Source of the DNA: Hypomesus transpacificus
Lineage: Eukaryota; Chordata; Actinopteri; Osmeriformes; Osmeridae
Assembly (NCBI RefSeq): GCF_021917145.1
Contig: NW_025813739.1
Location: 1 to 64,000, forward strand
Length of the DNA: 64,000 bases
Reading direction: 5' to 3'
This document shows, one piece after another, positions 5,236-64,000 of the stretch. Below the pieces are notes generated by a model. It had not been told where the DNA came from and did not search any database. It worked only from the letters and a program-made list of their open reading frames with translations. The position numbers and the translations under genes were made by a program. How positions within the stretch are numbered: the stretch's first letter is position 1; each line of letters opens with the position of its first letter.

Positions 5236-9985
<4,750 letters not shown>

Positions 9986-37697: not shown

Positions 37698-38045
37698 GAT
37701 CCAGGCTGGGTCAGCTATGGAGGATCCAGGATGGTTCAGCTATGGAGGATCCAGGCTGGGTCAACTATGGAGGATCCAGGCTGCATGGGTCAGCTATGGA
37801 GGATCCAGGATGGTTCAGCTATGGAGGATCCAGGCTGGGTCAGCTATGGAGGATCCAGGCTGGGTCAGCTATGGAGGATCCAGGCTGGGTCAGCTATGGA
37901 GGATCCAGGATGGTTCAGCTATGGAGGATCCAGGCTGGGTCAGCTATGGAGGATCCAGGATGGTTCAGCTATGGAGGATCCAGGCTGGGTCAGCTATGGA
38001 GGATCCAGGATGGTTCAGCTATGGAGGATCCAGGCTGGGTCAGCT
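37698..38045. repeat. 25-bp minisatellite, about 14 copies
   Basis: Unit gatccaggctgggtcagcta plus tggag. Units with ggctggg and ggatggt partly alternate, giving a 50-bp super-period in places. One unit has a 4-bp insertion (tgca, near 37782). It is open in several frames because few stops arise, but it is not a gene. Confidence 0.95.
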
Positions 38046-42718: not shown

Positions 42719-43400
42719 AGTCACCCTGTAGTCACCCACACACTGTACTGAACACTGTAGTCACCAACACACTGTACTGAACACTGTATTCAACAACACA
42801 CTGAACTGAACACTGTAGTCACCAACACACTGTACTGAACACTGTAGTCACCAACACATTGTACTGAACACTGTAGTCACCAACACACTGTACTGCGCAC
42901 TGTCACCAACACACTGGACTGAACACTGTAGTCATCAACACACTGCACCGAACACTGTCACCAACACACTGTACTGAACACTGTAGTCACCAACACACTG
43001 TAGTGAACACTGTAGTCACCAACACATTGTACTGAACACTGTCACCAACACACTGTACTGAACACTGTAGTCACCAACACACTGTACTGAACACTGTCAC
43101 CAACACACTGTACTGAACACTGTAGTCACCAACACACTGTACTGAACACTGTAGTTACCAACATACTGTACAGAACACTGTAGTCACCAACACGCTGTAC
43201 TGAACACTGTAGTCACCAACACACTGTACTGAACACTGTCACCAACACACTGTACTGAACACTGTCACCAACACACTGTACTGAACACTGTAGTCACCAA
43301 CATACTGTACAGAACACTGTAGTCACCAACACGCTGTACTGAACACTGTAGTCACCAACAGACTATACTGAACACTGTCACCAACACACTGTACTGAAAG
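42719..43400. repeat. 29/26-bp minisatellite, about 24 copies
   Basis: Unit core caccaacacactgtactgaa followed by cactg, with or without a three-base tag, giving 29-bp and 26-bp forms interspersed. A sub-block with variant gacatactgtacag-like units recurs at about 43160 and 43300, indicating internal duplication. Confidence 0.93.
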
Positions 43401-51600: not shown

Positions 51601-52432
51601 TTTCTCAGAGTCAACTTGGCGTGCCAATGTTGTGGTTTTCTCAGACAAGTCTAAACCCTTTGCAATCAGTGATTCCTAATTTTATATTTTTTTGCTTCCT
51701 TGCACATTACATACTAAGTCTTATCTTAGAGAGATGACAGAGGTTGACATGATTATGCCCTATGGTTCATTAATACGCATTACTTTTTAATTCCACATAA
51801 TAAATAACACATTGGAATTGTGACAATATGCAACTTGGCCGTTTCTCCTGGGCATTCAGATTGATGGTAAGAGCCAGCACCAGGCCCTGCCTCTGCTGAC
51901 AACATGAGCTATAAATTAATGCTTCGACACTAACGCAGGAAATTTATGACAGGGGAAATACAGGAGCAAGGAAAACAGTCTTCCTGCAGCCACTGTGTAC
52001 TGATAATTAAGGACACGCTTAAGACTGAGAAGTCTTTAGTAATAAAACCCCCAAAAAGATGTGAGTTGAAGGTTTGGGTGATATCCTCACATATGGTGAG
52101 ATGGCAGGGAGCACATGATGAGTCGATCACCGACTTGAGCACATAACTGTGGGTCAAAGGGTCCATGGTTTAATACTGAGAGGTAAAACTGAAAACCCCA
52201 GGTGGACGGCATTTGTTGTTTGCCAGACAGTTTGGGGTTTTCCTTTCACAGAGGCATGGTGAGCAGGATTCTACTATCCATATACAAATAGGTATGTTTT
52301 ATTTTTATATTTTTTATGTGTAATAAGCACATCACGGGTGTGTCCTGATAACAAAGTCCTGGTTAAAACCATTAAAAAAGAAATTGTGTCTACGTGTAGA
52401 AGGACAGACTAAGCAGCTGGTGTGACACTGGA
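48621..52432. other. No gene seen; small simple repeats
   Basis: Contains an interrupted CA run (49600-49640), a TG run (50298-50322) and a GACA/GATA cluster (50850-50912). No gene or mobile element recognised. Confidence 0.5.
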
Positions 52433-52636
52433 GCAGTTGAATGGCCGATATTCCTTATCAGATCAAACCTTCAGTACAGTATTCATATGCCGCTGTTCAG
52501 GAATCCACTTACTGAATAGAAAACTACTGAAAAGAGATATTTGTGAGATATAAATGTGTTCCAACTCACCATTTCACTTTGGAAGAAGTATTGGGCTATT
52601 TCATTGGTATTTCATGGTTTCAGGAACTCTCTTGTT
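52433..52636. repeat. Direct repeat A, copy 1, left of the tRNA array
   Basis: Shares with copy 2 (52763-52978), 330 bp away, blocks such as gcagttga, cttatcagatca, cagtacagtattca, gaaaactactgaa, catttcactttggaagaag and caggaactctcttgtt. Diverged by substitutions and small indels. No coding sense. Confidence 0.88.
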
Positions 52637-52762
52637 GTACGAACGAAACGAAATGACACCTTATAACGACAAAAACGTATTATGAACAAACACTCTCCAC
52701 CTGCTCTCTGCGCACTCGCTTCCTGGTTTGTCACAAAAGGGGGCGTTGCCAGGCTGGTTTGG

Positions 52763-52978
52763 GCAGTTGAAAGGATGGCATTACTTATCAGATCAGACCA
52801 TCAGTACAGTATTCACATAATGCAGTTCTGAAATCCACCTAGAAAACTACTGAAATAAGATGAACAATTGGTGAGATATAAAGGTATTCCATCTCAACAT
52901 TTCACTTTGGAAGAAGTGTTGGGCTATTTCATTAGTATTGTTCTGAAATTGATACCCTTGTTTCAGGAACTCTCTTGT
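52763..52978. repeat. Direct repeat A, copy 2, abutting the tRNA array
   Basis: Second copy of the 52433 repeat. It ends 38 bp before the first tRNA gene (53017). Relative to copy 1 it has an extra ttctgaaattgatacccttg-like insert near its right end. Confidence 0.88.
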
Positions 52979-53016
52979 TTTCTATTTACAGACCAAAGAT
53001 AGATCAATATATCAAT

Positions 53017-53110
53017 TGCTCCAGGTGAGGCTCGAACTCACAACCTCAGCATGGCTTTGCAGATTATTGTCTTATAAGTACCGTGCGCTAACCGATTGCG
53101 CCACTGGAGC
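53017..53110 (-). tRNA. tRNA-Ile(UAU), copy 1, outermost and divergent
   Basis: G26 to A, a G-U in the anticodon stem and several intron changes. All arms still pair. The 3' flank is unlike other copies. Confidence 0.8.
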
Positions 53111-53229
53111 AGATGAAGGACCACCAGCCCCTGTCAAATCTGTACGCCGAGTATGATTGACGCGTGAAACCGATAATTCAAGAAATCAGTTCCATATGAT
53201 GAACAAAGTAAGGACCAACCAAATATAAA

Positions 53230-53323
53230 TGCTCCAGGTGAGGCTCGAACTCAAAACCTCGGCATCGCTCTGCAGAATACTGTCTTATAAGTACCGTGCG
53301 CTAACCGATTGCGCCACTGGAGC
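53230..53323 (-). tRNA. tRNA-Ile(UAU), copy 2
   Basis: Intact anticodon arm and intron. T-stem G49 to U opposes C65, so one T-stem pair is lost. Confidence 0.75.
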
Positions 53324-53441
53324 ACATGAAAGACCACCAGCCCAGTCAAATGTGTACAAAGAGTATGATTGACGCGTGATACCGATAATTCAAGAACTCA
53401 GTTCCATATGATGAACAAAGTAAAGCCCAACCAAATATCAA

Positions 53442-53535
53442 TGCTCCAGGTGAGGCTCGAACTCACAACCTCGGCATCGCTCTGCAGAATACTGTCATAT
53501 AAGTACCGCACGCTAACCTATTGCGCCACTGGAGC
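53442..53535 (-). tRNA. tRNA-Ile(UAU), copy 3
   Basis: Minor changes: one D-loop base, a G-U at 10-25 and the first intron base. Follows a 212-bp rather than 213-bp spacing. Confidence 0.82.
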
Positions 53536-53654
53536 AGATGAAAGACCGCCAGCTCGTGACAAATCTGTACGAAGAGTATGATTGACGCCTGAAACCAATA
53601 ATTCAAGAAGTCAGTTCCATATAATGAACAAAGTAAAGCCCAACCAAATATCAA

Positions 53655-53748
53655 TGCTCCAGGTGAGGCTCAAACTCACAACCTCGGCATCGCTCTGCAG
53701 AATACTGTCTTATAAGTACCGCGCGCTAACCGATTGCGCCACTGGAGC
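53655..53748 (-). tRNA. tRNA-Ile(UAU), copy 4, B box damaged
   Basis: C56 is U (loop TTTGAGC), hitting an invariant base of the T loop and B box; probably poorly transcribed. Otherwise like class I. Confidence 0.65.
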
Positions 53749-53867
53749 AGATGAAAGACCACCAGCCCCTGTCAAATCTCTACGAAGAGTATGATTGACG
53801 CCTCAAACCGATAATTCCAAAACTCCGTTCCATATGATGAACAAAGTAAAGCCCAACCAAATATCAA

Positions 53868-53961
53868 TGCTCCAGGTGAGGCTCGAACTCACAACCTCGG
53901 CATCGCTCTGCAGAACACTGTCTTATAAGTACCGCGCGCTTACCGATTGCGCCACTGGAGC
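53868..53961 (-). tRNA. tRNA-Ile(UAU), copy 5, class IIIa
   Basis: Intron and D-loop variant with all stems paired. TTTT occurs about 47 nt downstream. Confidence 0.85.
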
Positions 53962-54080
53962 AGATGAAAGACCACCAGCCCCTGTCAAATCTGTACGAAG
54001 AGTATGATTGACGAGTGAAACCGATAATTCAAGAACTCAGTAACATATAATGAACAAAGTAAAGCCCAACCAAATATCAA

Positions 54081-54174
54081 TGCTCCAGGTGAGGCTCGAA
54101 CTCACAACCTCGGCATCGCTCTGCAGAATACTGTCTTATAAGTACCGCGCGCTTACCGATTGCTCCACTGGAGC
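54081..54174 (-). tRNA. tRNA-Ile(UAU), copy 6
   Basis: Class I intron, but D-loop T to A and C11 to A (A-G mismatch in the D stem). Same form as copy 46. Confidence 0.75.
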
Positions 54175-54293
54175 AGATGAAAGACCACCAGCTCGTGCCA
54201 AATCTGTACGAAGAGTATGATTGACGCCTGAAACCGATAATTCAAGAACTCAGTTCCATATGATGAACAAAGTAAAGCCCAACCAAATATCAA

Positions 54294-54387
54294 TGCTCCA
54301 GGTGAGGCTCGAACTCACAACCTCGGCATCGCTCTGCAGAATACTGTCTTATAAGTACCGCGCGCTAACCGATTGCACCACTGGAGC
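54294..54387 (-). tRNA. tRNA-Ile(UAU), copy 7
   Basis: As class I except C11 to U, which keeps a G-U pair. Confidence 0.88.
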
Positions 54388-54506
54388 AGATGAAAGACCA
54401 CCAGCCCCTGTCAAATCTGTACGAAGAGTATGATTGACGCCTCAAACCGATAATTCAAGAACTCAGTTCCATATGATGAACAAAGTAAAGCCCAACCAAA
54501 TATCAA

Positions 54507-54600
54507 TGCTCCAGGTGAGGCTCGAACTCACAACCTCGGCATCGCTCTGCAGAATACTGTCTTATAAGTACCGCGCGCTAACCGATTGCGCCACTGGAGC
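54507..54600 (-). tRNA. tRNA-Ile(UAU), copy 8, class I
   Basis: Reference sequence. No T4 in the 3' spacer. Confidence 0.93.
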
Positions 54601-54719
54601 AGATGAAAGACCACCAGCCCCTGTCAAATCTGTACGAAGAGTATGATTGACGAGTGAAACCGATAATTCAAGAACTCAGTTCCATATAATGAACAAAGTA
54701 AAGCCCAACCAAATATCAA

Positions 54720-54813
54720 TGCTCCAGGTGAGGCTCGAACTCACAACCTCGGCATCGCTCTGCAGAATACTGTCTTATAAGTACCGCGCGCTAACCGATT
54801 GCGCCACTGGAGC
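54720..54813 (-). tRNA. tRNA-Ile(UAU), copy 9, class I
   Basis: Reference gene. Its 5' leader is cut short by the fusion junction to the truncated copy at 54834. Confidence 0.92.
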
Positions 54814-54833
54814 GGATGAAAGACCGCCAGCTC

Positions 54834-54919
54834 GTGAGGCTCGAACTCACAACCTCGGCATCGCTCTGCAGAACACTGTCTTATAAGTACCGCGCGCTTA
54901 CCGATTGCTCCACTGGAGC
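54834..54919 (-). pseudogene. Truncated tRNA-Ile(UAU) copy
   Basis: 86 bp, class IIIb, lacking the last 8 bases (3' acceptor strand and discriminator). The join is between a spacer ...ctcgtg and the T-arm side gtgagg, with short shared gtg, so an unequal exchange or deletion of 107 bp is likely. It has A and B boxes but cannot form an acceptor stem. Confidence 0.88.
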
Positions 54920-55038
54920 AGATGAAAGACCACCAGCTCGTGCCAAATCTGTACGAAGAGTATGATTGACGCCTGAAACCGATAATTCAAGAACTCAGTT
55001 TCATATGATGAACAAAGTAAAGCCCAACCAAATATCAA

Positions 55039-55132
55039 TGCTCCAGGTGAGGCTCGAACTCACAACCTCGGCATCGCTCTGCAGAATACTGTCTTATAAG
55101 TACCGCGCGCTAACCGATTGCGCCACTGGAGC
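55039..55132 (-). tRNA. tRNA-Ile(UAU), copy 10, class I
   Basis: Reference gene. Its 3' spacer has the private variant tttcatatga shared only with copy 23. Confidence 0.93.
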
Positions 55133-55251
55133 AGATGAAAGACCACCAGCCCCTGTCAAATCTGTACGAAGAGTATGATTGACGAGTGAAATCGATAATT
55201 CAAGAACTCAGTTCCATATAATGAACAAAGTAAAGCCCAACCAAATATCAA

Positions 55252-55345
55252 TGCTCCAGGTGAGGCTCGAAATCACAACCTCGGCATCGCTCTGCAGAAT
55301 ACTGTCTTATAAGTACCGCGCGCTAACCGATTGCACCACTGGAGC
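55252..55345 (-). tRNA. tRNA-Ile(UAU), copy 11, class II
   Basis: G53 to U and C11 to U. The near-universal 53-61 pair is lost. Confidence 0.7.
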
Positions 55346-55464
55346 AGATGAAAGACCACCAGCCCCTGTCAAATCTGTACGAAGAGTATGATTGACGCCT
55401 CAAACCGATAATTCAAAAACTCAGTTCCATATGATGAACAAAGTAAAGCCCAACCAAATATCAA

Positions 55465-55558
55465 TGCTCCAGGTGAGGCTCGAACTCACAACCTCGGCAT
55501 CGCTCTGCAGAATACTGTCTTATAAGTACCGCGCGCTAACCGATTGCGCCACTGGAGC
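55465..55558 (-). tRNA. tRNA-Ile(UAU), copy 12, class I
   Basis: Reference gene with TTTTT 46-50 nt downstream (A run at 55415-55419). Confidence 0.94.
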
Positions 55559-55677
55559 AGATGAAAGACCGCCAGCTCGTGACAAATCTGTACGAAGAGT
55601 ATGATTGACGCCTGAAACCGATAATTCAAGAACTCAGTTCCATATGATGAACAAAGTAAAGCCCAACCAAATATCAA

Positions 55678-55771
55678 TGCTCCAGGTGAGACTCGAACTC
55701 ACAACCTCGGCATCGCTCTGCAGAACACTGTCTTATAAGTACCGCGCGCTTACCGATTGCTCCACTGGAGC
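55678..55771 (-). tRNA. tRNA-Ile(UAU), copy 13, class IIIb
   Basis: Also C60 to U in the T loop. D-stem mismatch at 11-24. Confidence 0.72.
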
Positions 55772-55890
55772 AGATGAAAGACCACCAGCTCGTGCCAAAT
55801 CTGTACGAAGAGTATGATTGACGCCTGAAACCGATAATTCAAGAACTCAGTTCCATATGATGAACAAAGTAAAGCCCAACCAAATATCAA

Positions 55891-55984
55891 TGCTCCAGGT
55901 GAGGCTCGAACTCACAACCTCGGCATCGCTCTGCAGAATACTGTCTTATAAGTACCGCGCGCTAACCGATTGCGCCACTGGAGC
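55891..55984 (-). tRNA. tRNA-Ile(UAU), copy 14, class I
   Basis: Reference sequence. Confidence 0.93.
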
Positions 55985-56103
55985 AGATGAAAGACCACCA
56001 GCCCCTGTCAAATCTGTACGAAGAGTATGATTGACGAGTGAAATCGATAATTCAAGAACTCAGTTCCATATAATGAACAAAGTAAAGCCCAACCAAATAT
56101 CAA

Positions 56104-56197
56104 TGCTCCAGGTGAGGCTCGAAATCACAACCTCGGCATCGCTCTGCAGAATACTGTCTTATAAGTACCGCGCGCTAACCGATTGCACCACTGGAGC
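56104..56197 (-). tRNA. tRNA-Ile(UAU), copy 15, class II
   Basis: G53 to U and C11 to U. Confidence 0.7.
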
Positions 56198-56316
56198 AGA
56201 TGAAAGACCACCAGCCCCTGTCAAATCTGCACGAAGAGTATGATTGACGCCTCAAACCGATAATTCAAAAACTCAGTTCCATATGATGAACAAAGTAAAG
56301 CCCAACCAAATATCAA

Positions 56317-56410
56317 TGCTCCAGGTGAGGCTCGAACTCACAACCTCGGCATCGCTCTGCAGAACACTGTCTTATAAGTACCGCGCGCTTACCGATTGCG
56401 CCACTGGAGC
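56317..56410 (-). tRNA. tRNA-Ile(UAU), copy 16, class IIIa
   Basis: All stems paired. TTTTT downstream. Confidence 0.88.
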
Positions 56411-56529
56411 AGATGAAAGACCACCAGCTCGTGCCAAATCTGTACGAAGAGTATGATTGACGCCTGAAACCGATAATTCAAGAACTCAGTTCCATATGAT
56501 GAACAAAGTAAAGCCCAACCAAATATCAA

Positions 56530-56623
56530 TGCTCCAGGTGAGGCTCGAACTCACAACCTCGGCATCGCTCTGCAGAATACTGTCTTATAAGTACCGCGCG
56601 CTAACCGATTGCGCCACTGGAGC
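56530..56623 (-). tRNA. tRNA-Ile(UAU), copy 17, class I
   Basis: Reference gene. Leader has a private cctccagccc variant not seen in its block-duplicate, copy 30. Confidence 0.93.
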
Positions 56624-56742
56624 AGATGAAAGACCTCCAGCCCCTGTCAAATCTGTACGAAGAGTATGATTGACGAGTGAAATCGATAATTCAAGAACTC
56701 AGTTCCATATAATGAACAAAGTAAAGCCCAACCAAATATCAA

Positions 56743-56836
56743 TGCTCCAGGTGAGGCTCGAAATCACAACCTCGGCATCGCTCTGCAGAATACTGTCTTA
56801 TAAGTACCGCGCGCTAACCGATTGCACCACTGGAGC
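56743..56836 (-). tRNA. tRNA-Ile(UAU), copy 18, class II
   Basis: G53 to U and C11 to U. Confidence 0.7.
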
Positions 56837-56955
56837 AGATGAAAGACCACCAGCCCCTGTCAAATCTGTACGAAGAGTATGATTGACGCCTCAAACCGAT
56901 AATTCAAAAACTCAGTTCCATATGATGAACAAAGTAAAGCCCAACCAAATATCAA

Positions 56956-57049
56956 TGCTCCAGGTGAGGCTCGAACTCACAACCTCGGCATCGCTCTGCA
57001 GAATACTGTCTTATAAGTACCGCGCGCTAACCGATTGCGCCACTGGAGC
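56956..57049 (-). tRNA. tRNA-Ile(UAU), copy 19, class I
   Basis: Reference gene with TTTTT downstream. Confidence 0.94.
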
Positions 57050-57168
57050 AGATGAAAGACCGCCAGCTCGTGACAAATCTGTACGAAGAGTATGATTGAC
57101 GCCTGAAACCGATAATTCAAGAACTCAGTTCCATATGATGAACAAAGTAAAGCCCAACCAAATATCAA

Positions 57169-57262
57169 TGCTCCAGGTGAGACTCGAACTCACAACCTCG
57201 GCATCGCTCTGCAGAACACTGTCTTATAAGTACCGCGCGCTTACCGATTGCTCCACTGGAGC
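57169..57262 (-). tRNA. tRNA-Ile(UAU), copy 20, class IIIb
   Basis: Also C60 to U. Confidence 0.72.
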
Positions 57263-57381
57263 AGATGAAAGACCACCAGCTCGTGCCAAATCTGTACGAA
57301 GAGTATGATTGACGCCTGAAACCGATAATTCAAGAACTCAGTTCCATATGATGAACAAAGTAAAGCCCAACCAAATATCAA

Positions 57382-57475
57382 TGCTCCAGGTGAGGCTCGA
57401 ACTCACAACCTCGGCATCGCTCTGCAGAATACTGTCTTATAAGTACCGCGCGCTAACCGATTGCGCCACTGGAGC
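57382..57475 (-). tRNA. tRNA-Ile(UAU), copy 21, class I
   Basis: Reference sequence. Confidence 0.93.
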
Positions 57476-57594
57476 AGATGAAAGACCACCAGCCCCTGTC
57501 AAATCTGTACGAAGAGTATGATTGACGAGTGAAATCGATAATTCAAGAACTCAGTTCCATATAATGAACAAAGTAAAGCCCAACCAAATATCAA

Positions 57595-57688
57595 TGCTCC
57601 AGGTGAGGCTCGAACTCACAACCTCGGCATCGCTCTGCAGAATACTGTCTTATAAGTACCGCGCGCTAACCGATTGCGCCACTGGAGC
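57595..57688 (-). tRNA. tRNA-Ile(UAU), copy 22, class I
   Basis: Reference gene beside the second truncated copy; block-duplicate of copy 9. Confidence 0.92.
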
Positions 57689-57708
57689 GGATGAAAGACC
57701 GCCAGCTC

Positions 57709-57794
57709 GTGAGGCTCGAACTCACAACCTCGGCATCGCTCTGCAGAACACTGTCTTATAAGTACCGCGCGCTTACCGATTGCTCCACTGGAGC
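57709..57794 (-). pseudogene. Second truncated tRNA-Ile(UAU) copy
   Basis: Same junction as at 54834, exactly 2,875 bp away, so it arose by duplication of a block already holding the truncation. Confidence 0.88.
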
Positions 57795-57913
57795 AGATGA
57801 AAGACCACCAGCTCGTGCCAAATCTGTACGAAGAGTATGATTGACGCCTGAAACCGATAATTCAAGAACTCAGTTTCATATGATGAACAAAGTAAAGCCC
57901 AACCAAATATCAA

Positions 57914-58007
57914 TGCTCCAGGTGAGGCTCGAACTCACAACCTCGGCATCGCTCTGCAGAATACTGTCTTATAAGTACCGCGCGCTAACCGATTGCGCCA
58001 CTGGAGC
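57914..58007 (-). tRNA. tRNA-Ile(UAU), copy 23, class I
   Basis: Reference gene; block-duplicate of copy 10. Confidence 0.93.
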
Positions 58008-58126
58008 AGATGAAAGACCACCAGCCCCTGTCAAATCTGTACGAAGAGTATGATTGACGAGTGAAATCGATAATTCAAGAACTCAGTTCCATATAATGAA
58101 CAAAGTAAAGCCCAACCAAATATCAA

Positions 58127-58220
58127 TGCTCCAGGTGAGGCTCGAAATCACAACCTCGGCATCGCTCTGCAGAATACTGTCTTATAAGTACCGCGCGCTA
58201 ACCGATTGCACCACTGGAGC
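58127..58220 (-). tRNA. tRNA-Ile(UAU), copy 24, class II
   Basis: G53 to U and C11 to U. Confidence 0.7.
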
Positions 58221-58339
58221 AGATGAAAGACCACCAGCCCCTGTCAAATCTGTACGAAGAGTATGATTGACGCCTCAAACCGATAATTCAAAAACTCAGT
58301 TCCATATGATGAACAAAGTAAAGCCCAACCAAATATCAA

Positions 58340-58433
58340 TGCTCCAGGTGAGGCTCGAACTCACAACCTCGGCATCGCTCTGCAGAATACTGTCTTATAA
58401 GTACCGCGCGCTAACCGATTGCGCCACTGGAGC
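58340..58433 (-). tRNA. tRNA-Ile(UAU), copy 25, class I
   Basis: Reference gene with TTTTT downstream. Confidence 0.94.
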
Positions 58434-58552
58434 AGATGAAAGACCGCCAGCTCGTGACAAATCTGTACGAAGAGTATGATTGACGCCTGAAACCGATAAT
58501 TCAAGAACTCAGTTCCATATGATGAACAAAGTAAAGCCCAACCAAATATCAA

Positions 58553-58646
58553 TGCTCCAGGTGAGACTCGAACTCACAACCTCGGCATCGCTCTGCAGAA
58601 CACTGTCTTATAAGTACCGCGCGCTTACCGATTGCTCCACTGGAGC
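58553..58646 (-). tRNA. tRNA-Ile(UAU), copy 26, class IIIb
   Basis: Also C60 to U. Confidence 0.72.
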
Positions 58647-58765
58647 AGATGAAAGACCACCAGCTCGTGCCAAATCTGTACGAAGAGTATGATTGACGCC
58701 TGAAACCGATAATTCAAGAACTCAGTTCCATATGATGAACAAAGTAAAGCCCAACCAAATATCAA

Positions 58766-58859
58766 TGCTCCAGGTGAGGCTCGAACTCACAACCTCGGCA
58801 TCGCTCTGCAGAATACTGTCTTATAAGTACCGCGCGCTAACCGATTGCGCCACTGGAGC
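58766..58859 (-). tRNA. tRNA-Ile(UAU), copy 27, class I
   Basis: Reference sequence. Confidence 0.93.
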
Positions 58860-58978
58860 AGATGAAAGACCACCAGCCCCTGTCAAATCTGTACGAAGAG
58901 TATGATTGACGAGTGAAATCGATAATTCAAGAACTCAGTTCCATATAATGAACAAAGTAAAGCCCAACCAAATATCAA

Positions 58979-59072
58979 TGCTCCAGGTGAGGCTCGAAAT
59001 CACAACCTCGGCATCGCTCTGCAGAATACTGTCTTATAAGTACCGCGCGCTAACCGATTGCACCACTGGAGC
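58979..59072 (-). tRNA. tRNA-Ile(UAU), copy 28, class II
   Basis: G53 to U and C11 to U. Confidence 0.7.
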
Positions 59073-59191
59073 AGATGAAAGACCACCAGCCCCTGTCAAA
59101 TCTGCACGAAGAGTATGATTGACGCCTCAAACCGATAATTCAAAAACTCAGTTCCATATGATGAACAAAGTAAAGCCCAACCAAATATCAA

Positions 59192-59285
59192 TGCTCCAGG
59201 TGAGGCTCGAACTCACAACCTCGGCATCGCTCTGCAGAACACTGTCTTATAAGTACCGCGCGCTTACCGATTGCGCCACTGGAGC
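59192..59285 (-). tRNA. tRNA-Ile(UAU), copy 29, class IIIa
   Basis: All stems paired. TTTTT downstream. Confidence 0.88.
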
Positions 59286-59404
59286 AGATGAAAGACCACC
59301 AGCTCGTGCCAAATCTGTACGAAGAGTATGATTGACGCCTGAAACCGATAATTCAAGAACTCAGTTCCATATGATGAACAAAGTAAAGCCCAACCAAATA
59401 TCAA

Positions 59405-59498
59405 TGCTCCAGGTGAGGCTCGAACTCACAACCTCGGCATCGCTCTGCAGAATACTGTCTTATAAGTACCGCGCGCTAACCGATTGCGCCACTGGAGC
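59405..59498 (-). tRNA. tRNA-Ile(UAU), copy 30, class I
   Basis: Reference sequence. Confidence 0.93.
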
Positions 59499-59617
59499 AG
59501 ATGAAAGACCACCAGCCCCTGTCAAATCTGTACGAAGAGTATGATTGACGAGTGAAATCGATAATTCAAGAACTCAGTTCCATATAATGAACAAAGTAAA
59601 GCCCAACCAAATATCAA

Positions 59618-59711
59618 TGCTCCAGGTGAGGCTCGAAATCACAACCTCGGCATCGCTCTGCAGAATACTGTCTTATAAGTACCGCGCGCTAACCGATTGC
59701 ACCACTGGAGC
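59618..59711 (-). tRNA. tRNA-Ile(UAU), copy 31, class II
   Basis: G53 to U and C11 to U. Confidence 0.7.
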
Positions 59712-59830
59712 AGATGAAAGACCACCAGCCCCTGTCAAATCTGTACGAAGAGTATGATTGACGCCTCAAACCGATAATTCAAAAACTCAGTTCCATATGA
59801 TGAACAAAGTAAAGCCCAACCAAATATCAA

Positions 59831-59924
59831 TGCTCCAGGTGAGGCTCGAACTCACAACCTCGGCATCGCTCTGCAGAATACTGTCTTATAAGTACCGCGC
59901 GCTAACCGATTGCGCCACTGGAGC
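59831..59924 (-). tRNA. tRNA-Ile(UAU), copy 32, class I
   Basis: Reference gene with TTTTT downstream. Confidence 0.94.
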
Positions 59925-60043
59925 AGATGAAAGACCGCCAGCTCGTGACAAATCTGTACGAAGAGTATGATTGACGCCTGAAACCGATAATTCAAGAACT
60001 CAGTTCCATATGATGAACAAAGTAAAGCCCAACCAAATATCAA

Positions 60044-60137
60044 TGCTCCAGGTGAGACTCGAACTCACAACCTCGGCATCGCTCTGCAGAACACTGTCTT
60101 ATAAGTACCGCGCGCTTACCGATTGCTCCACTGGAGC
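60044..60137 (-). tRNA. tRNA-Ile(UAU), copy 33, class IIIb
   Basis: Also C60 to U. Confidence 0.72.
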
Positions 60138-60256
60138 AGATGAAAGACCACCAGCTCGTGCCAAATCTGTACGAAGAGTATGATTGACGCCTGAAACCGA
60201 TAATTCAAGAACTCAGTTCCATATGATGAACAAAGTAAAGCCCAACCAAATATCAA

Positions 60257-60350
60257 TGCTCCAGGTGAGGCTCGAACTCACAACCTCGGCATCGCTCTGC
60301 AGAATACTGTCTTATAAGTACCGCGCGCTAACCGATTGCGCCACTGGAGC
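60257..60350 (-). tRNA. tRNA-Ile(UAU), copy 34, class I
   Basis: Reference sequence. Confidence 0.93.
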
Positions 60351-60469
60351 AGATGAAAGACCACCAGCCCCTGTCAAATCTGTACGAAGAGTATGATTGA
60401 CGAGTGAAATCGATAATTCAAGAACTCAGTTCCATATAATGAACAAAGTAAAGCCCAACCAAATATCAA

Positions 60470-60563
60470 TGCTCCAGGTGAGGCTCGAAATCACAACCTC
60501 GGCATCGCTCTGCAGAATACTGTCTTATAAGTACCGCGCGCTAACCGATTGCACCACTGGAGC
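60470..60563 (-). tRNA. tRNA-Ile(UAU), copy 35, class II
   Basis: G53 to U and C11 to U. Confidence 0.7.
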
Positions 60564-60682
60564 AGATGAAAGACCACCAGCCCCTGTCAAATCTGCACGA
60601 AGAGTATGATTGACGCCTCAAACCGATAATTCAAAAACTCAGTTCCATATGATGAACAAAGTAAAGCCCAACCAAATATCAA

Positions 60683-60776
60683 TGCTCCAGGTGAGGCTCG
60701 AACTCACAACCTCGGCATCGCTCTGCAGAACACTGTCTTATAAGTACCGCGCGCTTACCGATTGCGCCACTGGAGC
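60683..60776 (-). tRNA. tRNA-Ile(UAU), copy 36, class IIIa
   Basis: All stems paired. TTTTT downstream. Confidence 0.88.
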
Positions 60777-60895
60777 AGATGAAAGACCACCAGCTCGTGC
60801 CAAATCTGTACGAAGAGTATGATTGACGCCTGAAACCGATAATTCAAGAACTCAGTTCCATATGATGAACAAAGTAAAGCCCAACCAAATATCAA

Positions 60896-60989
60896 TGCTC
60901 CAGGTGAGGCTCGAACTCACAACCTCGGCATCGCTCTGCAGAATACTGTCTTATAAGTACCGCGCGCTTACCGATTGCGCCACTGGAGC
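60896..60989 (-). tRNA. tRNA-Ile(UAU), copy 37, class I/III recombinant
   Basis: Class I intron with the class III D-loop change, as if formed by exchange within the gene. Confidence 0.9.
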
Positions 60990-61108
60990 AGATGAAAGAC
61001 CACCAGCTCGTGCCAAATCTGTACGAAGAGTATGATTGACGCCTGAAACCGATAATTCAAGAACTCAGTTCCATATGATGAACAAAGTAAAGCCCAACCA
61101 AATATCAA

Positions 61109-61202
61109 TGCTCCAGGTGAGGCTCGAACTCACAACCTCGGCATCGCTCTGCAGAATACTGTCTTATAAGTACCGCGCGCTAACCGATTGCGCCACTGGA
61201 GC
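61109..61202 (-). tRNA. tRNA-Ile(UAU), copy 38, class I
   Basis: Reference sequence. Confidence 0.93.
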
Positions 61203-61321
61203 AGATGAAAGACCACCAGCCCCTGTCAAATCTGTACGAAGAGTATGATTGACGCCTCAAACCGATAATTCAAGAACTCAGTTCCATATGATGAACAAAG
61301 TAAAGCCCAACCAAATATCAA

Positions 61322-61415
61322 TGCTCCAGGTGAGGCTCGAACTCACAACCTCGGCATCGCTCTGCAGAATACTGTCTTATAAGTACCGCGCGCTAACCGA
61401 TTGCGCCACTGGAGC
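61322..61415 (-). tRNA. tRNA-Ile(UAU), copy 39, class I
   Basis: Reference gene; one of three consecutive class I copies (38-40). Confidence 0.93.
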
Positions 61416-61534
61416 AGATGAAAGACCACCAGCCCCTGTCAAATCTGTACGAAGAGTATGATTGACGAGTGAAACCGATAATTCAAGAACTCAGTTCCAT
61501 ATAATGAACAAAGTAAAGCCCAACCAAATATCAA

Positions 61535-61628
61535 TGCTCCAGGTGAGGCTCGAACTCACAACCTCGGCATCGCTCTGCAGAATACTGTCTTATAAGTACC
61601 GCGCGCTAACCGATTGCGCCACTGGAGC
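61535..61628 (-). tRNA. tRNA-Ile(UAU), copy 40, class I
   Basis: Reference sequence. Confidence 0.93.
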
Positions 61629-61747
61629 AGATGAAAGACCGCCAGCTCGTGACAAATCTGTACGAAGAGTATGATTGACGCCTGAAACCGATAATTCAAG
61701 AACTCAGTTCCATATGATGAACAAAGTAAAGCCCAACCAAATATCAA

Positions 61748-61841
61748 TGCTCCAGGTGAGGCTCGAACTCACAACCTCGGCATCGCTCTGCAGAACACTG
61801 TCTTATAAGTACCGCGCGCTTACCGATTGCTCCACTGGAGC
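61748..61841 (-). tRNA. tRNA-Ile(UAU), copy 41, class IIIb
   Basis: D-stem mismatch. C60 is retained, unlike copies 13, 20, 26 and 33. Confidence 0.74.
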
Positions 61842-61960
61842 AGATGAAAGACCACCAGCTCGTGCCAAATCTGTACGAAGAGTATGATTGACGCCTGAAA
61901 CCGATAATTCAAGAACTCAGTTCCATATGATGAACAAAGTAAAGCCCAACCAAATATCAA

Positions 61961-62054
61961 TGCTCCAGGTGAGGCTCGAACTCACAACCTCGGCATCGCT
62001 CTGCAGAATACTGTCTTATAAGTACCGCGCGCTAACCGATTGCGCCACTGGAGC
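61961..62054 (-). tRNA. tRNA-Ile(UAU), copy 42, class I
   Basis: Reference sequence. Confidence 0.93.
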
Positions 62055-62173
62055 AGATGAAAGACCACCAGCCCCTGTCAAATCTGTACGAAGAGTATGA
62101 TTGACGAGTGAAATCGATAATTCAAGAACTCAGTTCCATATAATGAACAAAGTAAAGCCCAACCAAATATCAA

Positions 62174-62267
62174 TGCTCCAGGTGAGGCTCGAAATCACAA
62201 CCTCGGCATCGCTCTGCAGAATACTGTCTTATAAGTACCGCGCGCTAACCGATTGCGCCACTGGAGC
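62174..62267 (-). tRNA. tRNA-Ile(UAU), copy 43, class II without the C11 change
   Basis: G53 to U but C11 kept, so the two class II changes are separable. Confidence 0.72.
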
Positions 62268-62386
62268 AGATGAAAGACCACCAGCCCCTGTCAAATCTGT
62301 ACGAAGAGTACGATTGACGCATCAAACCGATAATTCAAAAACTCAGTTCCATATGATGAACAAAGTAAAGCCCAACCAAATATCAA

Positions 62387-62480
62387 TGCTCCAGGTGAGG
62401 CTCGAACTCACAACCTCGGCATCGCTCTGCAGAACACTGTCTTATAAGTACCGCGCGCTTACCGATTGCGCCACTGGAGC
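62387..62480 (-). tRNA. tRNA-Ile(UAU), copy 44, class IIIa
   Basis: All stems paired. TTTTT downstream. Confidence 0.88.
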
Positions 62481-62599
62481 AGATGAAAGACCACCAGCTC
62501 GTGCCAAATCTGTACGAAGAGTATGATTGACGCCTGAAACCGATAATTCAAGAACTCAGTTCCATATGATGAACAAAGTAAAGCCCAACCAAATATCAA

Positions 62600-62693
62600 T
62601 GCTCCAGGTGAGGCTCGAACTCACAACCTCGGCATGGCTATGCAGAATACTGTCTTATAAGTACCGCGCGCTAACCGATTGCGCCACTGGAGC
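62600..62693 (-). tRNA. tRNA-Ile(UAU), copy 45, class I mature sequence
   Basis: Mature part is reference; the 3' half of the intron has two private changes (gcatagcc). Confidence 0.9.
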
Positions 62694-62812
62694 AGATGAA
62701 AGACCACCAGCCCCTGTCAAATGTGTACGAAGAGTATGATTGACGAGTGAAACCGATAATTCAAGAACTCAGTAACATATAATGAACAAAGTAAAGCCCA
62801 ACCAAATATCAA

Positions 62813-62906
62813 TGCTCCAGGTGAGGCTCGAACTCACAACCTCGGCATCGCTCTGCAGAATACTGTCTTATAAGTACCGCGCGCTTACCGATTGCTCCAC
62901 TGGAGC
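62813..62906 (-). tRNA. tRNA-Ile(UAU), copy 46
   Basis: As copy 6: class I intron, D-loop change and C11 to A. The 3' spacer variant agtaacatataatg is also shared with copy 6. Confidence 0.75.
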
Positions 62907-63025
62907 AGATGAAAGACCACCAGCTCGTGCCAAATCTGTACGAAGAGTATGATTGACGCCTGAAACCGATAATTCAAGAACTCAGTTCCATATGATGAAC
63001 AAAGTAAAGCCCAACCAAATATCAA

Positions 63026-63119
63026 TGCTCCAGGTGAGGCTCGAACTCACAACCTCGGCATCGCTCTGCAGAATACTGTCTTATAAGTACCGCGCGCTAA
63101 CCGATTGCGCCACTGGAGC
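63026..63119 (-). tRNA. tRNA-Ile(UAU), copy 47, class I
   Basis: Reference gene. Confidence 0.93.
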
Positions 63120-63238
63120 AGATGAAAGACTACCAGCCCCTGTCAAATCTGTACGAAGAGTATGATTGACGGCTGAAACAGATAATTTAAGAACTCAGTT
63201 CCATATGATGAACAAAGTAAAGCCCAACCAAATATCAA

Positions 63239-63332
63239 TGCTCCAGGTGAGACTCGAACTCACAACCTCGGCATCGCTCTGCAGAATACTGTCTTATAAG
63301 TACCGCGCGCTAACCGATTGCGCCACTGGAGC
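63239..63332 (-). tRNA. tRNA-Ile(UAU), copy 48
   Basis: Class I except C60 to U; all stems paired. Confidence 0.88.
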
Positions 63333-63451
63333 AGATGAAAGACCGCCATCTCGTGACAAATCTGTACGAAGAGTATGATTGACGCATCAAACCGATAATT
63401 CAAAAACTCAGTTCCATATGATGAACAAAGTAAAGCCCAACCAAATATCAA

Positions 63452-63545
63452 TGCTCCAGGTGAGGCTCGAACTCACAACCTCGGCATCGCTCTGCAGAAC
63501 ACTGTCTTATAAGTACCGCGCGCTTACCGATTGCGCCACTGGAGC
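63452..63545 (-). tRNA. tRNA-Ile(UAU), copy 49, class IIIa
   Basis: All stems paired. TTTTT downstream. Confidence 0.88.
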
Positions 63546-63664
63546 AGATGAAAGACCACCAGCTCGTGCCAAATCTGTACGAAGAGTATGATTGACGCCT
63601 GAAACCGATAATTCAAGAACTCAGTTCCATATGATGAACAAAGTAAAGCCCAACCAAATATCAA

Positions 63665-63758
63665 TGCTCCAGGTGAGGCTCGAACTCACAACCTCGGCAT
63701 CGCTCTGCAGAATACTGTCTTATAAGTACCGCACGCTAACCGATTGCGCCACTGGAGC
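63665..63758 (-). tRNA. tRNA-Ile(UAU), copy 50
   Basis: Class I with C25 to U (G-U at 10-25). Confidence 0.88.
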
Positions 63759-63877
63759 AGATGAAAGACCGCCATCTCGTGACAAATCTGTACGAAGAGT
63801 ATGATTGACGCCTGAAACCGATAATTCAAGAACTCAGTTCCATATGATGAACAAAGTAAAGCCCAACTAAATATCAA

Positions 63878-63971
63878 CGCTCCAGGTGAGGTTCGAAGTC
63901 ACAACCTCGGCATCGCTCTGCACAACACTGTCTTATAAGTACCGCGCGCTAACCGATTGCACCACTGGAGC
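63878..63971 (-). tRNA. tRNA-Ile(UAU), copy 51, degenerate
   Basis: Discriminator G instead of A, G53 to C, G59 to A, C11 to U and intron changes. Its extra divergence resembles the left-edge copies. Confidence 0.6.
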
Positions 63972-64000
63972 AGATGAAAGACCGCCAGCTCGTGACAAAT

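Follow-up and report, generated by a model that had tools for sequence, protein, structure and literature searches.

A satellite-like tandem array of tRNA-Ile(UAU) genes in the genome of the fish Hypomesus transpacificus

The first 64,000 bases of contig NW_025813739.1 (hereafter C71; 330,122 bp) of the fish Hypomesus transpacificus, a stretch referred to below as the window, contain a head-to-tail array of genes for tRNA-Ile(UAU), the tRNA that reads AUA codons. The organization of this array suggests that the locus is a young tRNA-gene satellite that was built from a real tRNA gene and has grown by unequal exchange and block duplication, a reading to which we assign a probability of roughly 0.7. 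Tandem tRNA arrays are already known in other eukaryotes. A single genome assembly (GCF_021917145.1; 437 Mb in 376 contigs) was used throughout.

Matching of gene starts identified 53 tRNA-Ile(UAU) units in the window (51 full and 2 truncated), all on the minus strand between positions 53017 and 63971, after one of 54 match rows (52341-52434) was dropped because the match was limited to the first bases of the gene. The spacing of the units is nearly invariant (213 bp at 49 of 52 inter-unit distances, 212 bp at one, and 106 bp at the two that involve truncated units), and the period assigned to the array by Tandem Repeats Finder (TRF) is also 213. A full unit is a 213-bp monomer that comprises a 94-bp gene, with exons of 38 and 36 nt on either side of a 20-nt intron, plus a 119-bp spacer. 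When the Rfam family RF00005 was used in E-value mode, all 53 window units were matched, 51 of them with scores of 43.0-57.6 bits that exceed the gathering score of 29 bits, and the two truncated units with 24.8 bits; the gathering threshold combined with the Rfam fast filters listed 43. Similarly, ARAGORN called 51 window genes, all Ile(tat), when introns of 15-30 nt were allowed, 41 without introns, and only 31 with its default intron range because some neighboring units were joined together.

These results agree with a preliminary description of this DNA, which had counted 51 full and 2 truncated genes in one orientation, had noted that about 21 copies keep one identical mature sequence, and had stated that the array runs off the window. 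The commonest mature sequence (the reference class) is present in 21 of the 51 full window copies, which represent 14 kinds in all. Beyond the window, 32 further gene-like units were found on C71, 30 of them at the 213-bp spacing, one 352 bp away, and one in which other DNA replaces the first exon; 31 of the 32 are full and above the Rfam cut-off, and the array ends at position 70926. The whole array therefore consists of 85 units (82 full, 3 truncated) with 19 kinds of mature sequence, the commonest of which is shared by 32 of the 82 full units. The next 70 kb of C71 past the array contain no tRNA detectable by ARAGORN.

Above the level of the monomer, the array shows additional periodicities. 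When units were sorted into classes at ≤2 differences, a cycle of seven units (1,491 bp; classes GKHLGKM) was revealed, with three full turns plus one variant (GKHLGIJ) in the window, one further full turn beyond it, and an exact 1,601-bp repeat at a shift of 1,491. Among lags of 1-19 in the window, units seven apart are the most alike (mean of 4.34 differences; 12/41 identical), whereas over the whole array, where ten lags were tested, a lag of 24 is closest (mean of 5.12 differences and 21/56 identical, versus a mean of 6.04 at lag 7) because of the newest block copy. This newest copy is that of a 24-unit block, and a second, shorter block is also repeated nearly without change (Table 1). 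The truncated unit looks like the result of a 107-bp loss at a shared TCAC (read by eye) that was afterwards copied along with its block. Head-to-tail monomers with a period of 213, a seven-unit period, block duplications, and decayed edges are together what supports the satellite-like nature that had been proposed for this locus.

Blocks this similar might also be produced if near-identical segments of 3 and 5 kb had been duplicated in error during assembly, which would inflate the copy number, and the single mismatch in 2,954 bp and the five in 5,112 bp are in keeping with such an error. However, neither the window nor the C71 stretches read beyond it contain an N, both edges of the array are present, and 33 distinct units exist among the 79 that were compared, so we regard assembly inflation as unlikely.

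The edges of the array provide a view of its history. A longer type of spacer, 258 bp in length, adjoins the array at its far edge, and two copies that are 88% and 82% identical to it are found at the left edge (Table 1). A genome search with the long spacer gave three matches, all at array edges (this was one search, in which common words can be missed), and an exact 24-base probe from the short spacer gave 76 matches genome-wide, all of them on C71 and inside the array (diverged copies would be missed). Because the matches to both spacers are confined to the array, it most likely grew in place. The possibility that the units are a tRNA-derived short interspersed element was rejected on the same evidence, since the dispersed insertions with a 3' tail that define such elements were not seen and all 76 exact spacer matches lie in the array. 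Also set aside was the idea that the left flank is unrelated to the array. The flank does lack any relation to the short spacer, but comparison with the long spacer at the opposite edge revealed it to be another type of unit. Homology between the short and long spacers was not apparent, as 41 of 300 shuffles reached the global alignment score and 9 of 300 the local one, and the 9-bp match to the tRNA 5' end beside the more decayed spacer is by itself insignificant (E = 0.78). Between the two decayed long-type spacers lie ~120 bp (52641-52762) that show no resemblance to a tRNA by eye at the place where a tRNA gene would be expected. The array contains no inverted repeats of at least 20 bp, and its three open reading frames of at least 80 aa extend to a maximum of 141 aa.

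The copies of the long-spacer repeat vary more among themselves than do the inner units, so this form, found at the edges only, is probably the older one. The 213-bp form would then have expanded to ~80 units through unequal exchange and block duplication, and the seven-unit higher-order repeats and the near-identical 3- and 5-kb blocks would be the outcome of that expansion.

Under such a history, the copies would be kept alike mainly by turnover and not by selection on individual copies. The preliminary description had proposed that at least part of the array is under selection or homogenized; of these, homogenization stands and is sufficient to account for 21 identical copies, whereas the evidence for selection on individual copies is mixed and weak (P values of 0.03-0.11, with most of the newest differences exonic). 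Several observations nevertheless weigh against turnover as the full explanation. Segregating sites are less frequent in exons than in spacers among 49 window units (10/74 versus 31/119, P = 0.047) and among the 46 core window units (5/74 versus 22/119, P = 0.031), in tests where copies are not independent and the two window samples are nested in the same units. With 79 units of the whole array the same comparison gives 12/74 versus 32/119 (P = 0.11); since two of the three tests fall below 0.05, some constraint is possible. The two newest 5.1-kb blocks differ at five sites, four of them exonic, which speaks for turnover, but two of the four occur in one unit, at sites 11 and 74, which set one unit class apart, and may represent a single conversion. 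It is also relevant that 32 identical mature copies among 82 could provide a useful dose of tRNA. Finally, the window array has a ratio of observed to expected CpG of 0.99, compared with 0.48 for the first 52.4 kb; undepleted CpG fits a young array, but it also fits one that escapes methylation in the germ line and may be used there. When CpG decay was assessed as a sign of methylation, there was no clear excess of CpG transitions over those at other C or G positions (5/22 versus 10/79, P = 0.31; 2/22 versus 8/79 in the core).

Genes for the same tRNA also exist outside the array. An exact 14-base probe, which misses copies that have lost any of the 14 bases, gave 80 matches, 77 of them in the array and one each on contigs C11, C13, and C370. 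The C11 and C13 matches are isolated intact genes whose mature sequence is identical to the array reference class, and their introns differ from the array intron at 6 and 5 of 20 sites, respectively. The isolated copy on C370 (36172-36259) has an intron two sites off that of the array and is termed a pseudogene because its 3' end is changed, despite a score of 39.9 bits; it is a possible relative of the array founder. The flanks of this pseudogene have no match to the array unit. A DNA search also found a 37-bp fragment of the 5' half of the gene on C19, whereas viral contigs contain no exact match to its 38-base 5' exon and a text search of papers for 26 bases of the gene returned none. This genome-wide count, for which the preliminary description had called, supports its view that genes for this isoacceptor are usually scarce and that the array is unusual, as does the presence of four high-confidence tRNA-Ile(UAU) genes in mouse (PMC11065635). 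In addition, no evidence was found for the high AUA-decoding demand that had been offered as one explanation: basic AUA decoding would not need the array, because the two isolated genes, which have nearby terminators, encode the same tRNA.

Many units of the array nevertheless retain the features of functional genes, and about six in ten full copies could make tRNA, judged from their sequence. For example, reference copies have the same Rfam score as both isolated genes (55.3 bits), and 52 of the 82 full copies have an intact A box, B box, and complete set of stems, with the remaining 30 failing a box or stem test (the box patterns scored were consensus forms). Among the window units, both boxes are kept in 34 of 53, all stems in 34 of 53, and the B box in 43 of 53; the main faults affect D-stem position 11 and G53, a residue of both the T stem and the B box.

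The array genes differ from the isolated ones in what follows them. A run of four or more T residues (T4+) shortly downstream, as expected of a complete RNA polymerase III (Pol III) unit, begins at +6 (T5) in the C13 gene and at +5 (T4) in the C11 gene, but none of the 85 array units has T4+ within 30 nt. The usual array unit instead has TTCTT at +46, where 16 of 85 have T4 or T5; one other T4 is at +170, and the first T4 after the leftmost gene is at +171. For comparison, the first T-tract lies within 7 nt in 251 of 270 yeast tRNAs (PMC9278858). Each array gene, if transcribed, would consequently yield a long or read-through precursor. One copy (53230-53323, minus strand) has TTTT in the gene body, within the T stem, which might stop Pol III inside the gene.

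This arrangement raises the possibility of polycistronic Pol III units, in which the polymerase would read through spacers that lack T4 and stop at the T5 of a minority of units to place several tRNAs on each transcript. Ten of the 53 window spacers have a T4-T5 tract at +46, and these tracts would delimit runs of ~3-8 genes (one run ends at the T4 inside a gene); two such sites occur in each seven-unit turn, in classes H and M, although two of the six class-H units, outside the turns, are without the site. On the other hand, with a background of 5-6 T4 per kb, roughly every second 119-bp spacer should lack T4 by chance, and TTCTT at +46 may itself weakly stop Pol III, so that polycistrons appear distinctly improbable.

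A second single-isoacceptor satellite, of tRNA-Cys(GCA), was encountered in a tRNA-family search in which 63 of 35,780 first-look candidates were scored, all 63 of them on contig C1 (Table 1). In the 25.7 kb of this array that were read, 110 of 112 tRNA calls are Cys(GCA), the other two being Gly and SeC, and the spacing is mostly 199-211 bp. Across lags of 1-16, its units are most alike four apart (mean of 3.77 differences; 16/48 identical), 102 of 103 units have T4 or longer at 16-31 nt, and the ratio of observed to expected CpG is 0.06 (51 CpG in the 21.6 kb measured). The commonest Cys copy appears by eye to have a T-stem mismatch (50-64). A genome-wide probe for the Cys anticodon arm matched 144 times on one strand and twice on the opposite strand, and the first 100 matches listed are all on C1. 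A probe for one form of the B box had 395 matches, compared with 10 in the control. The first 100 listed of the latter probe, on C1-C20, are nearly all isolated, so tandem arrays are seemingly not the rule, as gauged by one form of the B box and this portion of its matches.

Among possible functions, supply of the egg deserves most attention. In zebrafish, the isodecoders of the egg and early embryo are reported to be in highly repetitive regions and those that rise later to be scattered, while those present throughout are encoded by identical copies of both the repeated and the scattered kind (PMC11417395). By analogy, growing oocytes of H. transpacificus might transcribe the array to stock the egg with tRNA-Ile(UAU), leaving later stages to the isolated genes. 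One array plus two isolated genes of identical mature sequence resembles the zebrafish present-throughout arrangement, there is no CpG depletion in the array, and the zebrafish data make the role in oogenesis that had been suggested for this locus more plausible. Thus, the egg is the best guess for the site of use, if the array is used. Set against this proposal are the lack of T4+ close to any of the 85 units, the 30 full copies with a faulty box or stem, the fact that only two single-isoacceptor arrays came to notice (among 63 scored of 35,780 candidates), and the isolated position of nearly all B-box matches examined, so we consider it possible but tentative. A more elaborate version, an egg-only tRNA factory in which the oocyte polymerase reads several terminator-less genes to a scattered T5 and the array intron marks the products, is very unlikely; as part of that proposal, the similar unit length of the Cys array would point to ~200-213 bp (one nucleosome repeat) as a length that is favored when tRNA genes turn into satellites.

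It was also suggested that the array is a chromatin boundary, with TFIIIC along its length insulating the region of the neighboring gene lrrtm4. The B box is kept in most window units, and a tRNA repeat at human 1q23.3 that binds CTCF and is proposed to be a boundary offers a precedent (PMC4041453). However, a conserved CTCF site is the basis of the human proposal, whereas nothing in the fish sequence points that way (B boxes were counted and no search for CTCF sites was made), and the array looks recent, which leaves this the least likely of the alternatives considered.

The locus is well suited to asking whether the fish uses the array, perhaps in its eggs. Repeated tRNA genes are very numerous in some fish, and zebrafish work suggests that repeated tRNA copies feed the egg and isolated copies later stages (PMC11417395), but identical copies are hard to distinguish. 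In H. transpacificus, one mature tRNA is encoded both by the array and by the two isolated genes, yet the introns differ, so precursor reads could assign transcription to its source. In addition, the array provides a natural contrast, namely many intact tRNA genes without the usual nearby terminator.

Several comparable systems are known, although an array of tRNA-Ile(UAU) genes is not named in the titles or abstract openings of the literature on such arrays, within the limited collection and terms searched. In zebrafish there are large parallel clusters and identical mature sequences that are both repeated and isolated, and clusters of fifty and more tRNA genes are reported in teleosts (PMC11417395; PMC2888827), but neighboring zebrafish pairs mostly specify different amino acids (PMC2888827), whereas the Ile array has one isoacceptor and higher-order repeats. 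The noncoding RNA arrays of Hydractinia, tRNAs included, are likewise evenly spaced, with tens to hundreds of near-identical copies and similar spacers (PMC11067881); this fish differs in that two isoacceptors were seen, with spacers of ~119-131 nt. The same account describes tandem tRNA arrays as unusual outside Entamoeba (PMC11067881), where such arrays hold almost all tRNA genes, in units that comprise as many as five genes separated by short tandem repeats (PMC2652664), unlike the Ile array. The SYY and proline clusters of Arabidopsis share with it a core of major copies, variable pseudogene edges, growth by tandem duplication, and introns that distinguish clustered from dispersed genes; however, the SYY unit consists of three genes that represent two isotypes, and most tissues silence it (PMC12308677). 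The variable repeat at human 1q23.3 is also a tandem tRNA repeat in a vertebrate, but its 7.3-kb unit uses both strands for five tRNA genes, which belong to four isotypes, and is GC-rich and CTCF-bound (PMC4041453). Finally, the 5S rDNA of pike is a hugely amplified Pol III gene of a fish, with genes more uniform than spacers and higher-order blocks, but it encodes 5S rRNA, exceeds 20,000 copies, and is heavily methylated (PMC5437419), whereas the Ile array shows no clear CpG decay.

Table 1. Features of the tRNA-Ile(UAU) array and related loci. Coordinates are those of the window (identical to C71) unless a contig is named.
Feature	Position	Strand	Evidence or comment
tRNA-Ile(UAU) satellite	53017..64000, continuing to C71:70926	-	gene-start matches, Rfam, ARAGORN
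Reference-class example unit	55039..55132	-	mature sequence of 21/51 full window copies; 55.3 bits
Truncated unit 1	54826..54919	-	Rfam 24.8 bits; last 8 nt of gene and start of spacer gone, 107 bp short of full unit
Truncated unit 2	57701..57794	-	2,875 bp from truncated unit 1, the shift of the block duplication; 24.8 bits
One turn of seven-unit higher-order repeat (GKHLGKM)	54920..56410	.	unit-class strings; 1,601 bp recurring exactly at a shift of 1,491
2,954-bp block, repeated at +2,875 bp with 1 mismatch	54661..57614	.	near-identical ~3-kb block
24-unit block (59073-64184), repeated at 64185-69296	59073..64000 (window part)	.	5 mismatches in 5,112 bp
Long-type spacer adjoining leftmost gene	52765..53004	-	88% identical to 258-bp spacer C71:70362-70619 on opposite edge
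Second decayed long-type spacer copy (52435-52611, 82%) with 9-bp tRNA 5'-end match (52426-52434)	52426..52611	-	
tRNA-Cys(GCA) single-isoacceptor satellite	C1:3131443-3166592		monomer ~205 bp, 4-unit higher-order period; read in part
lrrtm4 coding exon (519 aa)	5239..6795	-	protein comparison; ~46 kb from array

The predicted lrrtm4 protein is closest to those of Aplochiton (91%), Oncorhynchus (90%), Larimichthys, Esox, and Dallia (range 89-91%), and the array, which is on the same strand, perhaps lies within a long 5' intron of lrrtm4 or upstream of it. Other LRRTM genes of mammals sit inside catenin genes. A catenin intron was therefore considered as the setting and rejected, as a tblastn search with an alpha-catenin sequence detected no exon and a single match attributable to chance (E = 6.7), and the gene proved to be lrrtm4. 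Elsewhere in the window there are two minisatellites, at 42726-43398 and 37698-38045, with units of 29 bp and 25 bp, respectively.

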